NCBI RefSeq assembly: GCF_006874625.1
Contig: NZ_CP030034.1
Span: 3,472,001 to 3,536,000, forward strand
DNA from: Bdellovibrio sp. NC01
GTDB lineage: Bacteria > Bdellovibrionota > Bdellovibrionia > Bdellovibrionales > Bdellovibrionaceae
DNA: 64,000 nt
Direction: 5' to 3'
Positions 17,515 to 50,034 of this stretch are shown here, piece by piece. Both the position numbers and the translations under genes were made by a program. The number at the start of each line of letters is the position of its first letter. Within the stretch, counting starts at the first letter, position 1. The notes beneath the pieces are model-generated. The model saw only the letters and a program-made list of their open reading frames with translations. It did no database searches and was not told the DNA's origin.

Positions 17515-18318
17515 CTATCTGCGTTTGTACCCAGCGTACTTCTCAGAAATGATCTGAGCTTTTTCTGGTTTAAGTAAATTCATAATATCAGCAGCATTTT
17601 TCTTTTTCATACGACCAAGTATTTCAACGACCAAATCCTCGTCCATTGTCTCGAAGATCTTAGCCGCTTGTGGTGGCTTCATATTCGAGTACATCTGTAC
17701 CAAGGTATCGATCTTCTGGTCGTCAGCCTTGACACGCTCTTCAAGCATTGAAGAGATCTTGCCGCGCATCTCTTCCAATTCTTTGAGGCGTTTATCAAGT
17801 TCGGACTTTTGCGCCTGAAGTTCTGATTCTTGACGATTCAATTCTTCTTCGCGTGCATCTAATTCTTTTTTTCTATCGTTCAATTTCGTCAGGTGATCGA
17901 TATCTTCTGTTGTTAACGCAGAAGATTTCTTTTCACCGTCAGCGGCTTCGTCTTTTTTCTCTGCAGCTGCGGCTTTTTCTTCTGGTTTGGACGGAACGTT
18001 TTCAGCAACCGCTTCACCAGTCATTGTGATTTCTACGCGCTTCACCATGCGCTCAACTTCTTCGTGGTTTTGTACTCCCCACAAAGCAAGAAGCAATCCC
18101 ATAAAGGAAACAGCCATCATTTTCCAAGGAATCGATTTTTTCTTTTTCTTTTTTGGCCCAGACATTTTCATGCGACGGCGGATCTGTTGCTCGATATCTT
18201 CAGAGGCTAAATCAAGATGCAAACGTGGAGCAGCAGGATTCTTACGAAACTTAACTCCGCTATTTTCGTCAGCAGCTTTGCGAGCATTTTTAAAGAATTG
18301 ATCGTATCCGCTTTTCAT
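17515..18318 (-). CDS. MotE/YlxF-like flagellar protein with MgtE N-terminal-type domain
   Basis: A 267-residue protein placed just after fliJ, where MotE/YlxF-type genes often lie. It has a basic cytoplasmic N-terminus, one membrane segment (about 67-82, WKMMAVSFMGLLLALWG), a Glu/Lys-rich coiled coil (about 135-195), and a C-terminal MgtE-N/FliG-like helical domain (PPQAAKIFETMDEDLVVEILGRMKKKNAADIM). The coiled coil and C-terminal domain should face the periplasm. Related proteins help assemble motor or periplasmic flagellar parts; the exact role here is inferred. Confidence 0.75.
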   Translation of the reverse strand: MKSGYDQFFKNARKAADENSGVKFRKNPAAPRLHLDLASEDIEQQIRRRMKMSGPKKKKKKSIPWKMMAVSFMGLLLALWGVQNHEEVERMVKRVEITMTGEAVAENVPSKPEEKAAAAEKKDEAADGEKKSSALTTEDIDHLTKLNDRKKELDAREEELNRQESELQAQKSELDKRLKELEEMRGKISSMLEERVKADDQKIDTLVQMYSNMKPPQAAKIFETMDEDLVVEILGRMKKKNAADIMNLLKPEKAQIISEKYAGYKRR

Positions 18319-20946: not shown

Positions 20947-21967
20947 CTTCCGAACCGCCTCTTGCAATTAGGATCTTTCCTTCTGCTTCCAAACGACGAG
21001 CCGCATTTACGATCTCTTGTTGTGCAGATTCTACGTCTGACAGACGAGAAGGTCCCATGTTCGACAAGTCTTCGCGTAACATCTCTGCCGCACGAGCTGA
21101 GATATTTTTGAAAACTTTTGTACGAATTTCTTCGCTTGAAGTTTTGAGCGCAAGCAATAGCTTGTCGTTCGGAACTTCTTTGAGAAGCGTTTGGATACCG
21201 CGATCGTCGATTTTGACGATATCGTCGAATACGAACATAAGTTTGCGAATCTCTTCCGCAAGAAGAGGATCTTTCTCTTCCAAGCGTGACATGATCGCTG
21301 TTTCTGTATTCTTGTCCATAACGTTGAGCATTTCGGCAACTGGTTGAACACCACCAAGGCTGGCTTGTTCGACTGTTGCTGTATTAGATAATTGATTTTT
21401 CAATACGCGGTCGATCTCTGCGATCAACTCTGGGTCCACGTGCTCCAAGTTTGCCATACGCAAAACCACTTCCGCTTGAAGTGCTTCTGGAAGACGTTTT
21501 AGAACCTCACCTTTTTTCTCTGGCTCAAGATGCGCAAGGATCACCGCAACAGTTTGCGGATGTTCGTTCACTAGGAACGTTGCCAAAGATTTCGCATCGA
21601 CCATCTCTAGTGATTCCAAAGAACGCGAACCACCCGATGTGATATTCAAACCACCCAGGATACCGCGGGCACGTTCTTCACCCAAAGCATCTACGATTGT
21701 ATCTTTCGCAGAGATGTCTTCAGAGAAGATATAGTCTTCAGTTTCAGAGATCATTTCATAGTATTCTTCCAACACACGTTTTGTGACGTGAACTGGAACA
21801 ACACGCAATTTACTCATTTGATTGATAAGCTTGCGGATGTCGGCATCGTCCATACGACGAAGCAAAACCTTCACCGCATCACGGCCCAAGTAATTGATAA
21901 GGATTGCGGCCTTATCAAAACCTTTTAGATTTTCATACTCGATATTCTCGGCCTTATGAAGTTTCAT
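20933..21967 (-). CDS. fliG: Flagellar motor switch protein FliG
   Basis: A 344-residue C-ring protein that connects the MS ring to the stator and produces torque. The EHPQ motif (NEHPQTVAVILAHLEPEKKGEVL) sits in the middle domain. The C-terminal torque domain is MFVFDDIVKIDDRGIQTLLKEV and following, with charged residues. Length is normal. Its ATG overlaps the fliF stop by one base. Confidence 0.95.
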   Translation of the reverse strand: MKLHKAENIEYENLKGFDKAAILINYLGRDAVKVLLRRMDDADIRKLINQMSKLRVVPVHVTKRVLEEYYEMISETEDYIFSEDISAKDTIVDALGEERARGILGGLNITSGGSRSLESLEMVDAKSLATFLVNEHPQTVAVILAHLEPEKKGEVLKRLPEALQAEVVLRMANLEHVDPELIAEIDRVLKNQLSNTATVEQASLGGVQPVAEMLNVMDKNTETAIMSRLEEKDPLLAEEIRKLMFVFDDIVKIDDRGIQTLLKEVPNDKLLLALKTSSEEIRTKVFKNISARAAEMLREDLSNMGPSRLSDVESAQQEIVNAARRLEAEGKILIARGGSEDAMV

Positions 21968-23619
21968 TAGCCATCCTTCCTAACAAGCCACATGCCAAAC
22001 GCGTTCGCTGCTTTTTCTTCATCACGGCTCATTGATGCCATGATACGGTCTTTCAGCAATTCACTTTCAGCCTTCTCTGGGTCGATAGATTCCTGCAGAA
22101 CAGGAAGAGCGGTCGACATACCAGGAAGAGAGTTATCAACGGACTGCAATTCTTCCAATTCCTCGATCGTACGTGGCAACATTTCCTCAACAGAGTCTTG
22201 GAAGCTGTCTGTAATCCATTGCATGAATGGACGAACCACGATGAAGAAGAACAACGCCAAAGAGAAACCTAGCAAAGCCCATTTGAACAATGCATGGATC
22301 AACTTTTTACGCTCAAGCGTCGTCAAGATTTTCTCTGCTTCAGAGAAGTCTTCTGGTTGGAACTGGATCGTTTCGATTTTTACACTGTCACCGCGAGCGG
22401 CATTGAAACCGATAGCACTTTTAACAAGGTCTTCGTATTTCTTAACTTCTTCAGCAGAACGAGGTGCCCATTTAGTTTCAGTTGTGCCATCAGGTTTCGT
22501 TGTTGTTGTCGCGATTCCATCAACGACAACCGCAACACTGACACGCTCAAGATTGCCGGCAGTTTCTCTGATATTACGAACTGTTTTAGGCACTTCGTAA
22601 TTCACTGTCTTCAATTCTTTTTTAACGTCTTGTTTGAAACCAACTTGGCCGCTGTTATCTTCAGCACCCGGGATATTTGAACGAGAACCCGGAACACCTG
22701 AAGGATTTGTTCTTGCGCCATCCAAAGATTCTTCTTCAGATTGTTGCGATTTGATTGCTGTTTTATCTGGATCAACAAGTTCTTCTACGGAAGAGATCAC
22801 ACGGTGATTCAAAGTCGCATCGACTTTCGCTACCACTTTCGCATGACCAACGACTTTAGAAAGAATGTCTTCAATACGACCTTCAAGATCGCGCTCTACT
22901 TTTGCTTTCAAATCTAGCAATTCGTTGGAACCACCCGTTGAACCATCAGAAGTACGAGTCAAAACTTTACCGCGTTCATCAAGAACCGCGACTTTATCTG
23001 GGTCCATACCTTCAACGGCATTTGCCACTAGGTAACGGATACCACGAACTTGATCAGGGGAAAGTTCTTTACCTTGGTGAAGTTCAACAACGACAGACGC
23101 CGATGGTTGACCGCCTTCTTCAAGGAACGTTTTTTTGTTTGGAAGAGCTAAGATAACTTTAGATTGTTTTACCGCTGTCAAAGTGTTGATGGCTCTCATC
23201 AACTCACCTTGAAGAGCACGTTGGTAATTGATTTTCTGAGCGTAAGAGTTCACGCCGAAATCTTGTTTGTCGAAAAGCTCAAGACCGATGTTACCCATTT
23301 TTGGAGAACCGATCTCTGCCATCAACGTCATTTGCGTTGAGTGCAAAAGCTCTTTAGGGATTGCGACTGTTTTACCGCCATCACGAAGTTGGAAAGGAAT
23401 ATTTTTTTCGTTCAACTTCGCAACGATAGAAGAAACTTGTTCCGTAGGGATGTTCGTAAACAATGGAACATAGTCTTTACCTGATGCCATGAAAAGCATC
23501 GTACACAACGCCACAAGCGCGATAACTGTAACCGCGATGACTGAAAGCCTCTTGGTTGGACCCAGATTTTTAAAGAACTCACGAAACTGGACAACCAATC
23601 CACCGAAAATTTTGTTCAA
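21967..23619 (-). CDS. fliF: Flagellar MS-ring protein FliF
   Basis: A 550-residue inner-membrane ring protein and the base of the flagellar motor. TM1 is about 23-46 and TM2 about 440-462. Between them are the ring-building motifs: FTNIPTEQVSSIVAKLNEKNIPFQL, NYQRALQGELMRAINTLTAVKQSKV and SASVVVELHQGKELSPDQVRGIRYLVANAVEGMDP. The C-terminal cytoplasmic helix binds FliG. The start is TTG 23619 with AGAAGGGG upstream. Confidence 0.94.
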   Translation of the reverse strand: MNKIFGGLVVQFREFFKNLGPTKRLSVIAVTVIALVALCTMLFMASGKDYVPLFTNIPTEQVSSIVAKLNEKNIPFQLRDGGKTVAIPKELLHSTQMTLMAEIGSPKMGNIGLELFDKQDFGVNSYAQKINYQRALQGELMRAINTLTAVKQSKVILALPNKKTFLEEGGQPSASVVVELHQGKELSPDQVRGIRYLVANAVEGMDPDKVAVLDERGKVLTRTSDGSTGGSNELLDLKAKVERDLEGRIEDILSKVVGHAKVVAKVDATLNHRVISSVEELVDPDKTAIKSQQSEEESLDGARTNPSGVPGSRSNIPGAEDNSGQVGFKQDVKKELKTVNYEVPKTVRNIRETAGNLERVSVAVVVDGIATTTTKPDGTTETKWAPRSAEEVKKYEDLVKSAIGFNAARGDSVKIETIQFQPEDFSEAEKILTTLERKKLIHALFKWALLGFSLALFFFIVVRPFMQWITDSFQDSVEEMLPRTIEELEELQSVDNSLPGMSTALPVLQESIDPEKAESELLKDRIMASMSRDEEKAANAFGMWLVRKDG

Positions 23620-23679: not shown

Positions 23680-24015
23680 CTAAACCTGCATCTTCATGAC
23701 TTCTTGGTACGCATCAATAATCTTGTTGCGCACTTGAACCATCACTCTCAATGCGATGTCTGCACGTTCTGCTGCGATCATTGCACCAGCAACGTCATCT
23801 GTTTTTCCCGTCGCAACGTTCTGAGCAAAAGTGTCAGATGACTTTTGCAATTCGTTTACGGAATTAACAGCGTCTTTCAAGGTATCGGCGAAGCTCTTGC
23901 CAGATTCAGCTGAACTACCAACGGATGAAGGGCCCTCGACAGAAAGAGACTTGGAATCACGTATGTTTCCAGTGTCGAGAAATCTGTTTGCATTCGATAC
24001 AGTAAAACCCTCCAT
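23680..24015 (-). CDS. fliE: Flagellar hook-basal body complex protein FliE
   Basis: A 111-residue protein that joins the MS ring to the rod. SFADTLKDAVNSVNELQKSSDTFAQNVATGKTDDVAGAMIAAERADIALRVMVQVRNKIIDAYQEVMKMQV is the typical FliE C-terminal region (split here by reading 23680-23890). ATG 24015 is preceded by AGGAGAGG; a start at 24036 would lie upstream of that site. Confidence 0.92.
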   Translation of the reverse strand: MEGFTVSNANRFLDTGNIRDSKSLSVEGPSSVGSSAESGKSFADTLKDAVNSVNELQKSSDTFAQNVATGKTDDVAGAMIAAERADIALRVMVQVRNKIIDAYQEVMKMQV

Positions 24016-24089
24016 GGCTTCACCTCTCCTTATCAAAATAGTAATCTAAACTAACTCAAAATTCCTGCTTTTTTAGCCAGGTCCAGGAA

Positions 24090-24533
24090 CTATCTTCCTA
24101 TCTCTAATGCGCTCATCGCCATATCTTTTGACGCCTGCAACGCAGAGACGTTCGCCTCGTAGGAACGCGATGACTGTATCATATTGGTCATCTCTTCCAT
24201 GAGGTTGATATTGGGATAAGCTACGTATCCATCAGCATTTGCGTCTGGATGATCCGGCTCGTACTTCAATAGCGGAGCCTTACGATCCGAGACCACATCA
24301 GTGACCTGGACTCGTTGGAAATTTCCATGAGGGTCCGTCCCAGTGATGATTTCGCCAAAATTTTTAGCGTCTGGCATCGATTCGAACACCACGTCTTTTC
24401 TACGGTACGGACCACCTTCCGGCGTCTGTGTCGTATTGATGTTCGCGATGTTAGAAGCAATGGTATTCATGCGCATTCTTTGCGCCGCCATACCACTCGA
24501 ACTAATTCTCATCCCTGTTAAAAAATCAGCCAT
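24090..24533 (-). CDS. flgC: Flagellar basal-body rod protein FlgC
   Basis: A 147-residue proximal rod protein. It has the N-terminal rod signature FLTGMRISSSGMAAQRMRMN and IASNIANINTTQTPEGGPYRRKDVVFE, and the C-terminal NLMEEMTNMIQSSRSYEANVSALQASKDM. Normal length and position. Confidence 0.94.
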   Translation of the reverse strand: MADFLTGMRISSSGMAAQRMRMNTIASNIANINTTQTPEGGPYRRKDVVFESMPDAKNFGEIITGTDPHGNFQRVQVTDVVSDRKAPLLKYEPDHPDANADGYVAYPNINLMEEMTNMIQSSRSYEANVSALQASKDMAMSALEIGR

Positions 24534-24545
24534 TGATTGCTCCTA

Positions 24546-24959
24546 TTATCTACCGTCGCCAGCAGCGTATTTTAAAGCAGCCATTTTTTTATTAATCAAT
24601 TGCAGAGCTGTCTTGTACATGATGGCATTTTCCGACAATGCCGACATTTCTTTTTCAAGATCGACAGTGTTGCCATCGTTGTTCACAGCGCCTTCTGGAT
24701 TTTCGTAAATATCAGGACGAGTCTTCGCCGCAGACAAACCACCCACCGCAAAATGCTCGGGGCTGCTTGTGCTTAAAGAGTTCATGCCATCCATGTCCAG
24801 GGCACGAGACAAAGCATCTTCGAAATCCATTTTCTTTGCATGGTATCCCGGAGTCTCTGCGTTCGCGATGTTAGAAGACGTTACGTTGTGACGTAACTGT
24901 CTCATGCGCATAGAAGTCGCTAAGGCATTGGTGGTTTTATCGAATAAATCACCACTCAT
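24546..24959 (-). CDS. flgB: Flagellar basal-body rod protein FlgB
   Basis: A 137-residue proximal rod protein. Its signature is MRMRQLRHNVTSSNIANAETPGYHAKKMDFEDAL, and it ends with the helical segment KEMSALSENAIMYKTALQLINKKM. Its ATG overlaps the stop of the upstream AAA+ regulator (ATGA), so the two are translationally coupled. Confidence 0.94.
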   Translation of the reverse strand: MSGDLFDKTTNALATSMRMRQLRHNVTSSNIANAETPGYHAKKMDFEDALSRALDMDGMNSLSTSSPEHFAVGGLSAAKTRPDIYENPEGAVNNDGNTVDLEKEMSALSENAIMYKTALQLINKKMAALKYAAGDGR

Positions 24960-25795
24960 ACTACCGCCTCCTTATATTCATTGAGTTTGTTTCTCAAAGT
25001 ACGAATGCTAATACCTAACATCTGAGCCGCGCGAGTACGGTTCTGAGCCGTCAACTCCAAGGTCTGTAAGATGAGACGCTTCTCGACTTCAGAAAGGGAC
25101 ATGCCTGGGGCAAAATCCACTGACATATCCTCAGCAACGGCCTCAAATTGAATAGAATCGGCGCCGATCACTGAATTTTTTGCAAGAACCACAGAACGCT
25201 CGATCACATTTTCAAGTTCGCGGATGTTTCCAGGCCAGTTCCACGAGTTCAAACGCGAATATGCGTCAGCCGAAAACTGCAAGCCCGATTTACCGTGCAT
25301 GATTTGTGAAACTTCCAAAATAAAGTTCACGATATTGTGGAAATCAATAGCGCGATCTTCCAAACGTGGAAGTTCCAAATGTACAACTGCGATTTTATAA
25401 AACAGATCTTGGCGGAATTGTTCTTGCTTCACCATCGCGCGGATATCACGACGAGACGTAGAGATGAAACGAGGTTTTGTTCCATCCGTGCGTTCAGCCA
25501 ATTTCATCAATTCAGTTTGAATTGCAGAAGAAGCTGCATCCAAATCTTCAATCAAAAGAGTGCCACCTTCAACACGGGCGAAATCAAAACCACCTGGGTT
25601 TTTGCACTCTAGAACATACAAGCGAGAAGAACGGCTCTTCGTATAAATGTAACGAGCCAAGCTTGTTTTACCTACACCAGCTTCACCGACAATAAGAAGG
25701 CTAGCTTGCGTTGGCGCCAATTGCAGGCTCAACTGCTTCGCTTCATTCACCTTTTTGTCTTCGATGTGTAGAGCATCAAAATCAAAGTACGACAT
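24956..25795 (-). CDS. AAA+ Fis-type flagellar regulator lacking the GAFTGA loop
   Basis: A 279-residue relative of sigma-54 activators (FlgR/FlbD/NtrC group) without a receiver domain. Walker A is GEAGVGKT (37-44), Walker B LLIEDLD (80-86), sensor I STSRRD, arginine finger region FRQDLFYK (127-134), sensor II WPGNIRELE (187-195), and a Fis-type HTH NRTRAAQMLGISIRTLRNKL (252-271). The stretch between Walker A and B is only about 35 residues, roughly half the usual, and the sigma-54-binding GAFTGA loop is absent. It is therefore unlikely to activate sigma-54 in the classical way. The upstream AMIN-TPR gene stop lies inside its SD (TAGGAGACAGG). Confidence 0.85.
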   Translation of the reverse strand: MSYFDFDALHIEDKKVNEAKQLSLQLAPTQASLLIVGEAGVGKTSLARYIYTKSRSSRLYVLECKNPGGFDFARVEGGTLLIEDLDAASSAIQTELMKLAERTDGTKPRFISTSRRDIRAMVKQEQFRQDLFYKIAVVHLELPRLEDRAIDFHNIVNFILEVSQIMHGKSGLQFSADAYSRLNSWNWPGNIRELENVIERSVVLAKNSVIGADSIQFEAVAEDMSVDFAPGMSLSEVEKRLILQTLELTAQNRTRAAQMLGISIRTLRNKLNEYKEAVV

Positions 25796-25803
25796 CCTGT
25801 CTC

Positions 25804-28581
25804 CTACTTGCTTTCTTCTTTTTCTGACATTGCTGGAATACGTTTAATATATTTCTTATAACCATCGCGCCATTCAGAGTTCTTAAGTTGTTCCTGCGCT
25901 AGATTTTTCCAGAAACCACTTTTTTCACCCTTAAATGTATTCCAAGTATCCGCAGCTTGTTGTACATCGCCGCGCTTGAAATAAATTTGGCCGAGCTTGT
26001 AACGGATTGACGACAACGGACGAGTCTCTTCGTATTTATCAAGAAGAGATTTGTAAGCATCAATCGCTTGATCCTTAGAACCGTTCGCCAAATAAATATC
26101 ACCCATTGTCTCTAACGCTTTCGCATGAATCGCCGGAGACACGTGATCTGAATCTTTTGCCAATTTGTCGATCATACCCAAAGCGGCCAAGGCATCGTCT
26201 TTCTTACCTTGCTTTTGTTGCAGCTCTGCCAATTTCAAATAAGGCTCTGCAACAAGTTCTGGCTGACCTTTCCAAGTGCGAAGAAGTTCGCCCAAATAAC
26301 GAACTGCTGAATCTGTGTCGCCACGTCTTTCAAGCAAACGAACGGCGATATTTACGCGTTCGATTTGTTCTGTCTCAGACAATTTTTCTGGTACTTTAAC
26401 GTTTTTCAAATACTCATAAGCCTGATTGTACTTTTGCTCATTCGAAGAAACAGCCGCCAAACGAAGATTCAATTCATCTTCTGTTGGGATTTGTTCTTTC
26501 ACGTTGATTTCACGAGCTTCCGCAGTACCACGGATTGAATACACTCTGTTCAAAACGTCTTTATAATATTTTTCAGATTCAACAGGCACGCCCGCCATTT
26601 CAAATGCGCGACCCACGTTGAATTTCGTGTCCAAGCGTTTTGAATTCTTCAACCAGCTATCTGAATACTGCGTGTGAGTTTTCAAAGCGCCGATGAAGTT
26701 TCCGTCTTCAACTTGTTTTTCTAGCTTGTTGTTGATGTTCGCCACGATTCTTTGAGTCATCAATGGCACGTCAACGTTTGTTGGATGTTCTTTATAGTAT
26801 TTAGAAAGCAGATCGATCGACTTATCGTATTCACCACGTTGTGAATAACCGTCAGCAACCATCACCGTCGCGAACTGCTCCATGTTTGGCAAATCTACTT
26901 TTTTCGCCAATGACATGATTTCTTTCACAGCGTTTTCAGTTTCTTTTGGTTTCATGCCTTTCATACGAGCTGAAAGCAAACGCAGACGAGAAATCACCGC
27001 ACTTGGATTTTCACCATAGCGGAAATACGTTTCAAGGTAAGCACCCATCACACGTGATTTATCTGCACCCAAGATCTCTAGCAATTCACCCATACGAGTC
27101 ATCGCGAATGGTGCGTGCTCGCTTGATGGGAATTTTTTTACGAATTCACGATACAAATCCAAACTTTGTGGGAACTTCTGCATACCAAACAAAGATTCTG
27201 CTTGGTTGTAGAATGCATTTGGATAGAACGCTTGGCCTTCTGGATATTTCTTCAAAGCCGTTTGATAGTCAGCAACGGCTTTCGCGTAATTCTTTGCACG
27301 AATCCACACGTCACCTTTACGGTAAGCCGCTTCAACTTTCAAATCTTGATGAGTTGAGTTTTTCTCAATCGCATCGTATTGCGCGACTGCATCTTCCCAT
27401 TTATTCAAACGCATGTAAGCCAAGCCCGTACCCATACGAGCCAAATCTTTGGACAAAGATTCTTTTCCACCGAAATTTTTATTGTCGATGTGTTCTTTGA
27501 ACAAACGAAGCGCGCTTAAGTTATCGCCACGTTCAAGAGTCAAATAGCCGACTTTCAAAGACGTGCGCTCAGACAAAGAAGACGTTGGGTATTTAGCAAT
27601 CGCCTCTTTGTATTTTTGCATCGCTTCGTCGAAGCTTTTTGTGTTACCCGGCTCTTTTGACAATGCCAAGTGAACATCGGCTGTCATGAAGTCGATGATT
27701 TCGTTGTATTCAGATTTTGGATATTTTTCTTTGAACCACTGAACAGTTTTAAGATAAACGGCATAACGTTCTTTTTCGAACAACGTCAAAAGAAGACGAG
27801 CCTGTTTATTCTCATCCGTTGGTTTTGGATTGATTTCATAAATTGTCGGCGTGTTCTTAACTTTTTCCCAGTACGTTACTGGAGTTTCAAGCATCGGAAA
27901 GCCGATATAATAGTTATCTTTCGCGCGGATCACTGACTCTTCTTTAATATCGTAAGGTTTAACAGTGAAGCGCTCATAGTCTGGATCGCCACCGTCAAAG
28001 ATACCTCTGTGCGCAACATTGTCATTCATCGCGACAGTCGTACCTTGATTTGCAATCACCAATGCATCTGCCGTCGCAGGCGTTCTGCCTTTTGGAGTTT
28101 TAGCTTTTGCTACAGTTTTTGCTGGCTTAGCTTCCTCTGACTTTTCTACAGTTTCTTTTTTAGCAACTGGTTTCTTATCAGTTTTTGCACCTGGATTAAC
28201 ATAAAAGTCTACAATAAGACGTGAAGGTTGATCTGTCAGATAATCGAATGTGTCGATGGAAGAACCAGAAAGAGTGAACGAAACGATATACTTGCCATCT
28301 GGACCTTTGCGATCCACTGACACTTCAGTGACCATTTCACTTTTGAAGCTATTTAAAGAGTTCACAGAAGCATCGTCCATCGCTGGAACTGTCATTTCCA
28401 CAACGGTCTTACCTTTGACCTCTTTGCGTTTGACGTCATAGTCCCAGTTCTGCTGACCGGATAGCTCAAGATGAACAGTGTCACCCTGAAAATTAATTGC
28501 GCCAGTAACCTTCGCAGCCCATGCGGGTGCTAGACTAAAGAACAGGCATCCTGCCATCGTTGCTTTAAGTAAAGTGTTCAC
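25804..28581 (-). CDS. Exported AMIN-like / TPR solenoid protein at the head of the flagellar operon
   Basis: A protein of about 925 residues. A signal peptide (LLKATMAGCLFFSLAPAWA) is followed by an AMIN-like beta domain (about 25-130, GAINFQGDTVHLELSG ... SRLIVDFYVNPG), a Lys/Ala/Pro linker (about 130-180), and then many TPR-type helical repeats to the end (for example YKEAIAKYPTSSLSERTSLKVGYL and YQTALKKYPEGQAFYPNAFY). It should lie in the periplasm, possibly on peptidoglycan via AMIN. I chose GTG 28581, which has AGAGGGG at 8 bases; an ATG at 28674 also exists but would start at the predicted transcript start. The stop is 8 bp before the flagellar regulator, so it belongs to the flagellar operon. 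A motor scaffold role is a guess. Confidence 0.75.
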   Translation of the reverse strand: MNTLLKATMAGCLFFSLAPAWAAKVTGAINFQGDTVHLELSGQQNWDYDVKRKEVKGKTVVEMTVPAMDDASVNSLNSFKSEMVTEVSVDRKGPDGKYIVSFTLSGSSIDTFDYLTDQPSRLIVDFYVNPGAKTDKKPVAKKETVEKSEEAKPAKTVAKAKTPKGRTPATADALVIANQGTTVAMNDNVAHRGIFDGGDPDYERFTVKPYDIKEESVIRAKDNYYIGFPMLETPVTYWEKVKNTPTIYEINPKPTDENKQARLLLTLFEKERYAVYLKTVQWFKEKYPKSEYNEIIDFMTADVHLALSKEPGNTKSFDEAMQKYKEAIAKYPTSSLSERTSLKVGYLTLERGDNLSALRLFKEHIDNKNFGGKESLSKDLARMGTGLAYMRLNKWEDAVAQYDAIEKNSTHQDLKVEAAYRKGDVWIRAKNYAKAVADYQTALKKYPEGQAFYPNAFYNQAESLFGMQKFPQSLDLYREFVKKFPSSEHAPFAMTRMGELLEILGADKSRVMGAYLETYFRYGENPSAVISRLRLLSARMKGMKPKETENAVKEIMSLAKKVDLPNMEQFATVMVADGYSQRGEYDKSIDLLSKYYKEHPTNVDVPLMTQRIVANINNKLEKQVEDGNFIGALKTHTQYSDSWLKNSKRLDTKFNVGRAFEMAGVPVESEKYYKDVLNRVYSIRGTAEAREINVKEQIPTEDELNLRLAAVSSNEQKYNQAYEYLKNVKVPEKLSETEQIERVNIAVRLLERRGDTDSAVRYLGELLRTWKGQPELVAEPYLKLAELQQKQGKKDDALAALGMIDKLAKDSDHVSPAIHAKALETMGDIYLANGSKDQAIDAYKSLLDKYEETRPLSSIRYKLGQIYFKRGDVQQAADTWNTFKGEKSGFWKNLAQEQLKNSEWRDGYKKYIKRIPAMSEKEESK

Positions 28582-28679
28582 TCCTTGAACCCCTCTTTTC
28601 CCTTCACTGTGCCATTGCACAGACGATGCCACCCCTTTCAAAGGTCTATTGGCAAATATGTTCAAGATGGGCAAAAAGT

Positions 28680-28785: not shown

Positions 28786-29274
28786 ATGTACAAGCATCTT
28801 AGATTTTTCATCATGAGTTTTTTATTCGCGGGCTGCGTGTCTGTTCAGCTTCCTGGCGGCAAAATCACGCCAGCAAAGGATGTCAGCTTTGAAGAGCCTT
28901 CCGCTCCATTCAAAAAAATCAAAGCGATTAACGCCGACAAAACATGGCAGAGCGAAAAAACTGGCAATACAATTTCGTTTTTATCGGAATGCGGTGGAAC
29001 GGCTGACCCGAGCTTGCAATCCATTGAGACAGAATCTTTAAGCGCGATGAATAATCTGCGCATCGTAAGTACTGAAAATCTTCAATACAACGGTCGCGAA
29101 GCTCGTCAAACGATCTCTACGGGTGAGGTTGACGGTGTTTCTGTACAATTGGCGTTGTTGATCTTTAAAAAGAACGGCTGCAACTACACTTTAAGTTACG
29201 GCGGTTTACAAAAGCAGTTCACTCCTGAATTAAGATATTTCGAAAAATTCAAATCTGAATTCAAGGCTCCATAG
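28786..29274 (+). CDS. Predicted lipoprotein, first gene of the Mla-type operon
   Basis: A 162-residue lipoprotein: MYKHLRFFIMSFLFAGC, lipobox FAGC, Cys at 17. The mature part has alternating short strands and a Cys pair (LSECGG and KNGCNY) and resembles the PsbP/DUF1795-like fold in outline. Only 1 bp separates its stop from the MlaE-like permease, so it is probably an accessory part of that transporter, perhaps an outer-membrane partner. No known Mla lipoprotein (MlaA) similarity is seen. The SD is weak. Confidence 0.7.
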   Translation: MYKHLRFFIMSFLFAGCVSVQLPGGKITPAKDVSFEEPSAPFKKIKAINADKTWQSEKTGNTISFLSECGGTADPSLQSIETESLSAMNNLRIVSTENLQYNGREARQTISTGEVDGVSVQLALLIFKKNGCNYTLSYGGLQKQFTPELRYFEKFKSEFKAP

Positions 29275-29275
29275 T

Positions 29276-30064
29276 ATGAACTTCTTAGCTCTCCCACTAG
29301 CGCCATTCATTATAGAAAGTCTCCATTTCATTGGTGGCGTGGGTTTGCTGACGCGTGAAATCTTCCGCGATTTATTTACGACTAAAATTTATTGGAAATT
29401 ATGGATTGAGCAAATCTATCAAGTGGGTATTCGCTCGACTCCCCTGATCGTTATCACAGCCGCAAGTACTGGTATGGTGATGGCATTGCAGTTCGGTTTA
29501 GGTCTAGAAAAATTCGGCGGCAAAATGTACGTCCCCAAATTATTGGCGGTGACTATTTTGCGTGAAATGGGACCAATGTTCACAAGCTTGATGCTGGCAG
29601 CCCGCGTGGGTGCAGGTTTTGCGAGTGAAATCGGCAGTATGGTCGTGACTCAACAAATCGATGCGATTCGTGCATTGGGCACTTCGCCGATTCGTAAAAT
29701 CGTTATTCCGCGTGTGATGGCGACGTTGATCGTGCTTCCAGTCCTTGTGGCCTTTTCAAATCTTGTCGGCAATGCCGGTGGTCTTTTGATTGGTGCCACA
29801 GAATTAAAACTGGATCCCGGCTTTTATCTTTTAAAAGTTATTACGACATCATCGTTGTCAGACTATCTTTCTGGCTTCGCAAAAAGCTTCTTCTTTGCTT
29901 TGATCATTTCAATTCCTTCTTGTTATTTCGGACTGACCGTTAAGAACGGTACGAAAGAAGTAGGTATCGCGACAACGAAAGCCGTTGTGGTTTCTTCTAT
30001 CCTCATTCTAGTTGCCGACTTCTTTTTGTCGAAATTGTTCTGGATCGTGGAGAAAATGTTATGA
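29276..30064 (+). CDS. mlaE: MlaE-family ABC transporter permease
   Basis: A 262-residue inner-membrane permease of the MlaE/YrbE family, which moves phospholipids between the membranes together with an MCE protein. Family motifs: STGMVMALQFGLGLEKFGGKMYV, LREMGPMFTSLMLAARVGAGFASEIGSM and VTQQIDAIRALGTSPIRKIVIPR. Five to six membrane segments. It overlaps the ATPase gene by 4 bp (ATGA). Confidence 0.92.
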   Translation: MNFLALPLAPFIIESLHFIGGVGLLTREIFRDLFTTKIYWKLWIEQIYQVGIRSTPLIVITAASTGMVMALQFGLGLEKFGGKMYVPKLLAVTILREMGPMFTSLMLAARVGAGFASEIGSMVVTQQIDAIRALGTSPIRKIVIPRVMATLIVLPVLVAFSNLVGNAGGLLIGATELKLDPGFYLLKVITTSSLSDYLSGFAKSFFFALIISIPSCYFGLTVKNGTKEVGIATTKAVVVSSILILVADFFLSKLFWIVEKML

Positions 30065-30813
30065 GTAACGAAGCAGGACAAGGCTTTATCGAAGTCGTCG
30101 ATTTTAAGAAGTCATTTGGTGAAAAGAAAGTTCACCAAGGTGTCAGCTTTTACGTGCGTAAAGGTGAATGCCTGGGTTTGATTGGTGGCTCTGGCGCAGG
30201 TAAGAGTGTGATCTTGCGCAGTCTTGTGGGTCTTGAAAAACCAGACAGCGGTCAAATCATCATTGATGGCGAAGACATTGTTCCAAAAAACGAAGCAGAA
30301 CTTGTCGAAGTTCGTAAAAAAGTGGCTTACGCCTTTCAAGGTGGCGCTTTATTTGACTCGATGACTGTTTATGAAAATCTAGCTTATCCCCTTCGCGAAC
30401 ATTTTAATTTTAGCGAAGCCGAAATTGCGAAACAAATTCGCGCGCAATTAGAAGAGTTCGGTCTAGATAAGAATGCCGAAAAGCTTTATCCGGGAAGTCT
30501 TTCTGGAGGCATGCAAAAACGTGTGGGCTTAGCACGCGCGATGATGATGCATCCCAAAGTCGTTTTGTACGATGAACCGACCGCGGGTCTGGATCCGTAC
30601 AATACCAAACGAATTCAAGAATCTATTTTAAAAATGAAAGCACAAGGAGTGACGTCGATCCTGGTCACTCATGATATGCCGACGGTTTATGCCGTTTGCG
30701 ATAAGGTCGCTTTATTATTGAATGGCCGTATTGGTGAACAATACACCATCGATAAATTAAAGTCCGAGCCGTCAGGAACGATGACAGATTTTATTAACGG
30801 AGAGAGCGCGTAA
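30061..30813 (+). CDS. mlaF: MlaF-family ABC transporter ATP-binding protein
   Basis: A 250-residue ABC ATPase that drives the MlaE permease. Walker A GGSGAGKSVILRSLVGLEKPDSG, Q-loop VAYAFQGGALFDSMTVYENL (FQ.GALFDS is typical for MlaF), signature LSGGMQKRVGLARAM and Walker B VVLYDEPTAGLDP are present. Its stop overlaps the MCE gene start by one base. Confidence 0.93.
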   Translation: MSNEAGQGFIEVVDFKKSFGEKKVHQGVSFYVRKGECLGLIGGSGAGKSVILRSLVGLEKPDSGQIIIDGEDIVPKNEAELVEVRKKVAYAFQGGALFDSMTVYENLAYPLREHFNFSEAEIAKQIRAQLEEFGLDKNAEKLYPGSLSGGMQKRVGLARAMMMHPKVVLYDEPTAGLDPYNTKRIQESILKMKAQGVTSILVTHDMPTVYAVCDKVALLLNGRIGEQYTIDKLKSEPSGTMTDFINGESA

Positions 30814-31625
30814 TGGAATCACAAAGCAGCACACAACTTAAAGTCGGAATCTATCTTGCGATTGGTATCGCAGCGATTCTTGCTTCGATCTTCTTCTTGG
30901 GCGCTGATAAAGCGATCTTCAGAAAGTACGTGAAAATTCACGCTTACTTCGATTCAACTCAAGGTTTGGCTGAGGGTAGCGTTGTTTCATTGTCAGGCGT
31001 GACAGTCGGTAACGTTAAATCAATCACTTTCCTTGAAGCTGAAAACAAATTGGACGTAACAATGACGATCGATGAAAAATACATCAATCGTGTTCGTAAA
31101 GATTCAGAAGTAGAAATCCGCACGCAAGGTGCCTTGGGCGACAAATTCGTATTCGTGTTCCCGGGTGATGCACGTCACCCTGTTGTGCAAGAAGGTGACG
31201 TTCTTGCCGTTGCCAAACCCACAGACTTGATCGGCGTTATTTCCGAGCGCGGTGGCGAAGCAGGACGTATTTTTGACGTTATCAATGAAGTCTATAAATT
31301 AGCGCACACAATGAACGCTGATAATCGCATGGGTAAAATCATGAACAACTTCGAAACAGCTTCTGTCGCTCTTGCACAAGCAAGTAAAGATGCGCAGAAG
31401 ATGGTTGGAACAGTGAACGGTGCTCGCGGTGGTGAAAAAATGGCGCACACTTTGGATCGCCTGGATGCCATCGTCACTAAGATTGATAAAGGTGAAGGCA
31501 CATTGGGTCTTCTTATCAATGATCCAACCCTGCATAATCAATTGAAGTCAGCCCTTGGCGGCACGACTCGTAAGAATCACGTTAAATCGTTACTAAGAAC
31601 ATCTATCGAAAAAGAAGACGAATAG
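30813..31625 (+). CDS. mlaD: MCE-domain lipid-binding protein, MlaD-like
   Basis: A 270-residue protein with one N-terminal membrane segment (about 12-31) and an MCE domain in the periplasm (about 37-120: VKIHAYFDSTQGLAEGSVVSLSGVTVGNVKSI ... DSEVEIRTQGALGDKFV). The rest is helical and ends KGEGTLGLLINDPTLHNQLKSAL, a motif common at MCE protein C-termini. It should form the lipid-binding hexamer on MlaE. MlaB and MlaC homologues are not seen in the window. Confidence 0.9.
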   Translation: MESQSSTQLKVGIYLAIGIAAILASIFFLGADKAIFRKYVKIHAYFDSTQGLAEGSVVSLSGVTVGNVKSITFLEAENKLDVTMTIDEKYINRVRKDSEVEIRTQGALGDKFVFVFPGDARHPVVQEGDVLAVAKPTDLIGVISERGGEAGRIFDVINEVYKLAHTMNADNRMGKIMNNFETASVALAQASKDAQKMVGTVNGARGGEKMAHTLDRLDAIVTKIDKGEGTLGLLINDPTLHNQLKSALGGTTRKNHVKSLLRTSIEKEDE

Positions 31626-48572: not shown

Positions 48573-48630
48573 GAACAGGTAGTTCGATTCCGTCGAATTA
48601 CTTAAAGAACCCACCATGGAAGGAAGGTTC

Positions 48631-50034
48631 ATGCGAACTCAACGCGTTCTTATATTAGATGACGAGTCATCACTTCGCACAGCACTCTTCAGAGTGTTAG
48701 ATCGCAAAGGACTTAACGTCATCACAGCCAACAAAATCGAAGAAGCAAAAGTTTTGTGTCAAGGCGATGTGCCTGTTGATCTTGCTATCGTAGATTTGAA
48801 TCTTCCGGACGGAGACGGCATTGAATTCATGACTTATTTAAAGTCATTGAATCCAGCTGCGGAAGTAATCATTTTGACTGGTCACGCGACAATTGAATCT
48901 GCAATTCGTGCAACTCAAAAAGGCGCCTTCCATTTCGTGACTAAGCCATTCAATCTTGAAGAGCTGATGAGCTTGATCGAGAAAGCTTTGACTCACAAGA
49001 AGTTGCAACAAGAAAACCAGCAACTTCGTTCTGAATTAAATAAGAAATATAAATTCGACCAAATCATCGGTTCCAGCGAACAAATTCAAAACGTTTTGCG
49101 TTTGATTGAACGTGTTGCTGATTCTGATTCAACAGTGTTGATCACGGGTGAGTCTGGAACAGGTAAAGAATTGATGGCTCGTGCGATTCACTACAACTCG
49201 CCACGTGCGAACGGTCCTTTCGTTCCAATTAACTGTGGCGCGATTCCGTCGGAGCTTTTGGAAAGTGAATTGTTCGGTCATATGAAAGGTGCCTTCACAG
49301 GTGCTATCGCAAACCGTGTCGGTCGTTTTGAAATGGCTGACGGCGGTACGATCTTCCTGGATGAAATCGGCGACCTTGAACCTTCGTTGCAAGTGAAACT
49401 TCTTCGCGCTTTGCAAGAACGTAGCTTCGAACCAGTGGGTTCTACAAAAACCGTGACAGTGAATGTTCGTGTGATCGCAGCGACGAACTTGAATTTAGAA
49501 GATGCTGTTGAAAACAACAGATTCCGCGAAGACTTGTACTATCGTTTGAACGTTATTCCGTTGGTGGTGCCAGCATTGCGTGAACGTAAAGCTGATATTC
49601 CGTTGTTGTTGAATCACTTCATGGAAGTGTTCAGCAAAACGAAAGGCCGCGGTTTGACTGGTATCACAACAGACGCGTTGGATGCTTTGGTAAATTACGG
49701 CTGGCCAGGAAATATTCGTGAGCTTGAAAATCTTGTTGAGCGCATGACCATCCTTAAAGGCCAAGGCTCGATCGAAATCAGTGATCTTCCGCCGAAATAT
49801 AAATCAAGCAAAGTCGTTTCGACTGACGTTGGTTCGTTGGAAATTCCTGATTCAGGAATGGACTTCAACACAGCAGTTGATAGCTTCGAAAACACTTTGA
49901 TCTTGAAGGCGCTAGAAAAAACAGGCTGGAACCGCAACCAAGCGGCGGCCCTGTTAAGACTGAACAGAACAACGTTGGTAGAGAAGATCAAAAAGAAAGG
50001 TCTGACTCCCCCGAACGATGTGAACCCTACTTAA
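48631..50034 (+). CDS. Sigma-54-dependent NtrC-family response regulator
   Basis: A 467-residue activator. The receiver has Asp55 (VDLNLPDGDG) and Lys in VTKPFNL. The AAA+ domain has Walker A TGESGTGKELMARAIHYNSPR, the sigma-54 contact loop GAFTGAIANRVGRFEMADGG, Walker B TIFLDEIGDLEPS and the arginine finger region FREDLYYRLNVIPL. The Fis-type HTH is GWNRNQAAALLRLNRTTLVEKIK. ATG 48631 has GGAAGG at the right distance; the ATG at 48616 is upstream of it. A complete partner for the upstream kinase. Confidence 0.93.
   Translation: MRTQRVLILDDESSLRTALFRVLDRKGLNVITANKIEEAKVLCQGDVPVDLAIVDLNLPDGDGIEFMTYLKSLNPAAEVIILTGHATIESAIRATQKGAFHFVTKPFNLEELMSLIEKALTHKKLQQENQQLRSELNKKYKFDQIIGSSEQIQNVLRLIERVADSDSTVLITGESGTGKELMARAIHYNSPRANGPFVPINCGAIPSELLESELFGHMKGAFTGAIANRVGRFEMADGGTIFLDEIGDLEPSLQVKLLRALQERSFEPVGSTKTVTVNVRVIAATNLNLEDAVENNRFREDLYYRLNVIPLVVPALRERKADIPLLLNHFMEVFSKTKGRGLTGITTDALDALVNYGWPGNIRELENLVERMTILKGQGSIEISDLPPKYKSSKVVSTDVGSLEIPDSGMDFNTAVDSFENTLILKALEKTGWNRNQAAALLRLNRTTLVEKIKKKGLTPPNDVNPT

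Follow-up and report, generated by a model that had tools for sequence, protein, structure and literature searches.

The 925-aa protein encoded at 25804–28581 on the minus strand of the window (the whole stretch of 64,000 nucleotides from Bdellovibrio sp. NC01 that was analysed) likely represents, in Bdellovibrionota, the class of flagellar motor spokes to which PflA and MotK belong, and is probably the component behind the extra (12-fold) ring of the Bdellovibrio motor. This candidate spoke is an AMIN-TPR periplasmic protein, and comparison of loci indicates that, in essentially all of the flagellated relatives examined, the flagellar operon begins with its gene.

The underlying idea has been known since 2018, when Chaban et al. 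reported B. bacteriovorus WP_011165745.1 from a flagellar operon, named it PflA-like and suggested that it forms the 12-fold, inner-membrane-proximal ring that cryo-ET revealed in the motor of this species (PMC5758724). The PflA-like idea for the B. bacteriovorus protein was repeated in a 2025 in situ structure paper (PMC12222027), and single flagella-linked TPR proteins across bacteria have likewise been treated as PflA-like (PMC11870540). The HD100 orthologue of the window protein is almost certainly the published WP_011165745.1, because it is the only long TPR ORF inside a flagellar cluster of that genome. WP_011165745.1 was described as having a signal peptide, a TM helix and TPRs (PMC5758724), whereas the N-domain was identified here as an AMIN fold. 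Besides this assignment, the present analysis adds phylum-wide synteny and co-occurrence, a promoter and a linked E-ring-type gene.

The reading frame opens with a GTG at 28581 and ends with a stop at 25804. An in-frame TTG at 28674 could provide a longer start, but Bdellovibrio orthologues open with (M/V)NTL at the GTG position, and GTG 28581 is therefore the right start. The gene is single-copy in the complete 3.98-Mb Bdellovibrio genome, where the remaining matches were generic TPR proteins, and a plasmid search gave no match. The part order claimed in the initial annotation (signal peptide, beta domain, linker and TPR array) was confirmed by Pfam and AlphaFold2 models. Specifically, the signal peptide (VNTLLKATMAGCLFFSLAPAWA, followed by A; residues 1–22, 28516–28581), probably cleaved by signal peptidase I (type I), is succeeded on the minus strand by an AMIN-fold beta-sandwich (residues 23–130, 28192–28515; profile and structure model), a low-confidence and probably disordered linker (residues 131–226, 27904–28191) and a TPR-like solenoid (residues 227–925, 25807–27903). 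A lipoprotein reading was also considered, as the signal peptide has a Cys that, in Bdellovibrio, resembles a lipobox; this Cys is absent from other genera, and since it is not conserved in the wider family, the protein was not regarded as a lipoprotein. A conserved short motif within the linker, IFDGGDPDYERF (residues 194–205, 27967–28002, minus strand), and residues 491–540 (26962–27111, minus strand), the most conserved stretch of the protein, with partly low model confidence, are candidate contact sites on the basis of their conservation.

For the N-terminal domain, sequence profiles and structure were both used. Pfam found only TPR families in the whole protein (TPR_16, 1e-27; TPR_6, 6e-27), and AMIN (PF11741) was not called on the full-length protein. 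The isolated N-domain reached PF11741 with E = 0.12 (full-length) and 12.9 bits, below the curated cut-off of 20.5, and AMIN, the only plausible family, was matched by three of ten orthologous N-domains (best E 1.4e-4). Structure prediction from a shallow alignment (10 sequences, from the window and related loci) gave an AlphaFold2 model of the N-domain with the AMIN sandwich and a pLDDT of 90.6. The five best structural matches of this model were all AMIN-type domains: the AMIN domain of AmiC (4bin) aligned with Z 13.9 over 103 residues at 2.2 A, PilQ in the type IVa pilus machine model with Z 11.8, and Neisseria PilQ with Z 10.2 (4av2) and 9.9. The PflA N-terminal domain (9leq_A) followed at Z 8.2 (103 aligned, rmsd 6.3), and the background consisted of small heat-shock folds at Z 7.2 or less. 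The model thus settles, as far as a predicted structure can, that the N-domain has the AMIN fold; the AMIN-like beta domain proposed earlier holds as a fold, whereas the N-domain sequence itself stays below the PF11741 cut-off.

The full-length model had a mean pLDDT of 70.9 and a pTM of 0.41, with the linker (132–226) at pLDDT <50 followed by ~34 helices, or approximately 17 TPR-like helix pairs. Foldseek ranked first the 773-residue chain K of 9hmf, a periplasmic scaffold from Campylobacter, with E 5e-14 over 935 columns, and the next match had E 2e-9. From its chain length and N-domain, we infer that 9hmf_K is PflA. Superposition of the full-length model on 9hmf_K was poor (TM 0.22–0.25), as expected for a flexible solenoid and equally for unrelated solenoids, and with VIA-align 2 at full length, generic TPR proteins matched best, in a piecewise manner, and PflA was absent among the 50 matches listed. 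Considering the low TM and the preference of the second aligner for ordinary TPR proteins, the full-length match therefore supports a common architecture, not a rigid superposition. In addition, a profile sequence search matched no PflA chain in the PDB, and no Flc structure was among the fold-search matches listed.

The structural comparison with PflA that had been proposed earlier showed the same domain layout in both proteins. PflA of Campylobacter jejuni and Helicobacter and the window protein have in common a signal peptide, an AMIN-like beta-sandwich, a disordered linker and ~16–17 TPR repeats, and PflA is the best Foldseek match over the full length if 9hmf_K is taken as PflA. Unlike this architecture, the sequence of the window protein has no detectable similarity to that of PflA, which is itself not conserved at the sequence level (PMC11870540). 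PflA forms spokes in the Campylobacter motor, and its N-terminal part (AMIN and linker) was described as binding the scaffold protein PflB (PMC12222027, PMC11870540). In contrast to the PflA system, no PflB, PflC, PflD or cage partners were recognised for the window protein, a TPR_16 search for a PflB-like partner having revealed no further long TPR gene in the neighbourhood of flagellar or motB genes, and, unlike pflA, the window gene lies at the head of a flgB–fliF operon. MotK of Cereibacter sphaeroides and CC_2058 of Caulobacter are also periplasmic AMIN and TPR proteins encoded in flagellar clusters with motE (PMC10954123, PMC13023049), and MotK is needed for rotation and interacts with MotB2 (PMC10954123). 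The motK gene adjoins motA/motE, whereas the window gene precedes the AAA+ gene and flgB, and motE follows about ten genes downstream. The TPR collar proteins FlcA and FlcB of Borrelia work with a ring of FlbB, a protein that the MotE candidate of the window resembles, but no AMIN domain is reported for them in the portions of the literature consulted. The initial annotation had suggested an analogous or independent scaffold, and its origin relative to PflA may be either shared or independent: fold and architecture match, whereas sequence does not.

The gene order links the protein to the flagellum. As noted at the outset of this work from the sequence, the stop codon lies exactly 8 bp (25796–25803) before the ATG (25795) of an AAA+ gene, which in turn overlaps flgB at 24956–24959; the coordinates bear this coupling out, and the gap is too short for any terminator. 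Downstream of the AAA+ gene, on the minus strand, are flgB (24546–24959; Flg_bb_rod match and gene order), flgC (24090–24533; profile match), fliE (23680–24036, start codon approximate; profile match) and the MS-ring gene fliF (21967–23619; TIGR00206, 5e-95). They are followed by fliG, fliH, fliI, fliJ, a MotE-like gene, fliK and flgD. The MotE-like gene (17515–18318, minus strand) is a candidate for a MotE/FlgY/FlbB-type E-ring protein. Its product has one TM helix, a coiled coil and a C-terminal MgtE_N-like domain (MgtE_N 9e-7, above the cut-off; FlbB NF047368 3.6e-12, below the cut-off), which is the topology reviewed for the E-ring proteins FlbB, MotE and FlgY (PMC13023049). Since PflA spokes touch FlgY and MotK works with MotE and MotB2, the window holds the reported two-gene set of spoke and E-ring protein. 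On the other side of the operon, a divergent Mla-type lipid transport cluster (28786–31625, plus strand) was detected, comprising a small lipoprotein-like ORF, mlaE, an ABC ATPase-like ORF and mlaD.

The AAA+ protein (24956–25795, minus strand) is a relative of sigma-54 activators with a Fis HTH, without a receiver and without the GAFTGA loop that contacts sigma-54, and therefore should not activate sigma-54. The state of this gene varied among the operons: it was intact in L048, L050–L053 and L061, FlrC-like with a receiver in L058–L060, altered in its loop in L049 (DAFAGA) and L056/L057 (GAFAGT), and without the loop in L054, L055, L062–L065 and Bdellovibrionales. These sequences suggest an apparently repeated decay of the operon AAA+ gene across the phylum.

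Upstream of the TPR gene, a sigma-54-type −24/−12 promoter (TGGCATCGTCTGTGCA, 28616–28631, minus strand) was identified ~50 bp before the start codon, and the element TGGCAY-N5-NTGCW occupied this position, ~50 bp upstream, in all Bdellovibrio loci. Sigma-54-type motifs lay within 100 bp upstream of the start in 40/40 Bdellovibrionales loci tested, which include many close relatives and do not represent 40 independent events, compared with 7–8% of other ORFs at the same score. The spacing between motif and start codon varied by one to three bases, and coding constraint therefore does not explain the conservation. Across the whole window the sigma-54 pattern occurred at chance level (42 seen versus 38.5 expected); only position and conservation make the site at 28616–28631 meaningful. 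Sigma-70-type promoters and terminators were no more frequent in the sequence than in shuffles. The motif was also present upstream of the TPR gene in most other orders, the exceptions being family f16 and a few single loci. In f16 (L062–L065), where the motif was absent and the adjacent AAA+ protein lacked GAFTGA, several loci had another AAA+ activator gene just upstream of the TPR gene, and a switch in how the operon is controlled seems to have taken place. The genome encodes RpoN, and the flagellar transcript likely begins, as predicted from the DNA, with the TPR gene. The sigma-54-type promoter of the operon might be activated by an NtrC-type response regulator encoded 20 kb away (48616–50034, plus strand), whose intact GAFTGA is one of six such sites in this genome. 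A literature search found no paper on sigma-54 control of Bdellovibrio flagella.

The distribution of the gene was analysed in a phylum sample of 241 genomes. In Bdellovibrionales, 67 genomes had both the TPR gene and fliF, 7 had neither, and none had only one, indicating the phylogenetic co-occurrence with flagellar genes that the scaffold proposal called for. All seven negative genomes belonged to one family, and the pattern therefore reflects few independent losses. Moreover, no location outside flagellar loci was seen among the matches listed: the TPR gene was within 8 kb upstream of fliF on the same strand in 38/38 pairs from Bdellovibrionales and in 49/49 same-contig pairs from other orders, with distances of 1.3–5.6 kb in the same-contig pairs listed. 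The order TPR-AAA+-flgB-flgC-fliE-fliF-fliG-fliH-fliI-(fliJ)-MotE was kept wherever the contig was long enough, and TPR-(AAA+)-flgB-flgC-fliE-fliF was also found in 20 loci from other families. In 20/20 further fliF-positive genomes without a direct match, chosen from the list, a TPR protein occupied the same operon position. In L058–L061 (families f17 and f11), the TPR protein at the locus had 725–800 aa and appeared to be without the N-terminal AMIN; AMIN is therefore not essential for the role of the family, and the anchor may be dispensable or replaced in these loci.

Several other roles were weighed against a spoke. The protein may, though this is unlikely, be a periplasmic flagellar assembly factor or chaperone (e.g., for P-ring, rod or MotE insertion through peptidoglycan) and no permanent motor part, a role compatible with its position next to rod genes, its sigma-54-type promoter, the occurrence of AMIN domains in amidases and pilus secretins too, and the precedent of PilF/PilW, TPR proteins that act as assembly factors; its length and spoke-like build, which recall PflA and MotK (PMC10954123, PMC12222027), and a matching unexplained ring in the motor (PMC5758724) argue against it. 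We consider it very improbable that the protein is the scaffold of another ring, such as a disk associated with the outer membrane or an enlarged P/L-ring in the sheathed flagellum of Bdellovibrio. Chaban et al. did report that the P- and L-rings of this motor are enlarged and of unknown composition (PMC5758724), and AMIN domains of the PilQ type work close to peptidoglycan and the outer membrane. Against this, PflA and MotK, whose layout is the same, are associated with the inner-membrane-proximal scaffold, MotE and stators, and every flagellated family sampled has the gene in this one position. A regulatory role as a periplasmic sensor of motor assembly that signals to the co-encoded AAA+ protein is hardly to be expected. 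It would fit the close linkage, in most of the phylum, with a divergent gene of the sigma-54-activator kind, but apart from the signal peptide the protein has no TM segment, it lacks a cytoplasmic domain for passing a signal, and in L066 and L067 the TPR gene is directly before flgB with no AAA+ gene between.

The periplasmic motor scaffold proposed in the initial annotation is thus favoured by the PflA-like layout, operon linkage, co-occurrence and conserved promoter, from which we infer membership of the motor. As a spoke of the PflA/MotK class, the protein would be made early and exported to the periplasm, its gene opening a sigma-54-type operon from which the rod, MS-ring and C-ring proteins are also produced. 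The C-terminal TPR solenoid would probably lie radially, with one end at the E-ring around the MS-ring, where the partner would be the MotE/FlgY-type protein from the same cluster, and the other near the stator units. The AMIN domain and disordered linker would be at the outer end, holding stator MotB, another scaffold protein or, conjecturally and as originally suggested for AMIN, peptidoglycan. About 12 copies would then build the inner-membrane-proximal ring of the B. bacteriovorus motor.

In summary, the phylum has one AMIN-TPR gene as regularly as it has fliF, at the head of the operon and together with an E-ring-type gene. This converts a one-species speculation into a specific, testable prediction on the composition of the 12-fold inner-membrane ring, a question since 2018. 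More tentatively, and with somewhat less than even confidence, an AMIN-TPR spoke on a MotE/FlbB-type E-ring might be a core, sigma-54-controlled flagellar part throughout Bdellovibrionota that alone makes the 12-fold stator ring without a PflB rim, representing either a living simple spoke stage that preceded the Campylobacter scaffold or a convergent rebuild. The Bdellovibrionota gene provides an outgroup for how the high-torque Campylobacter motors were assembled.
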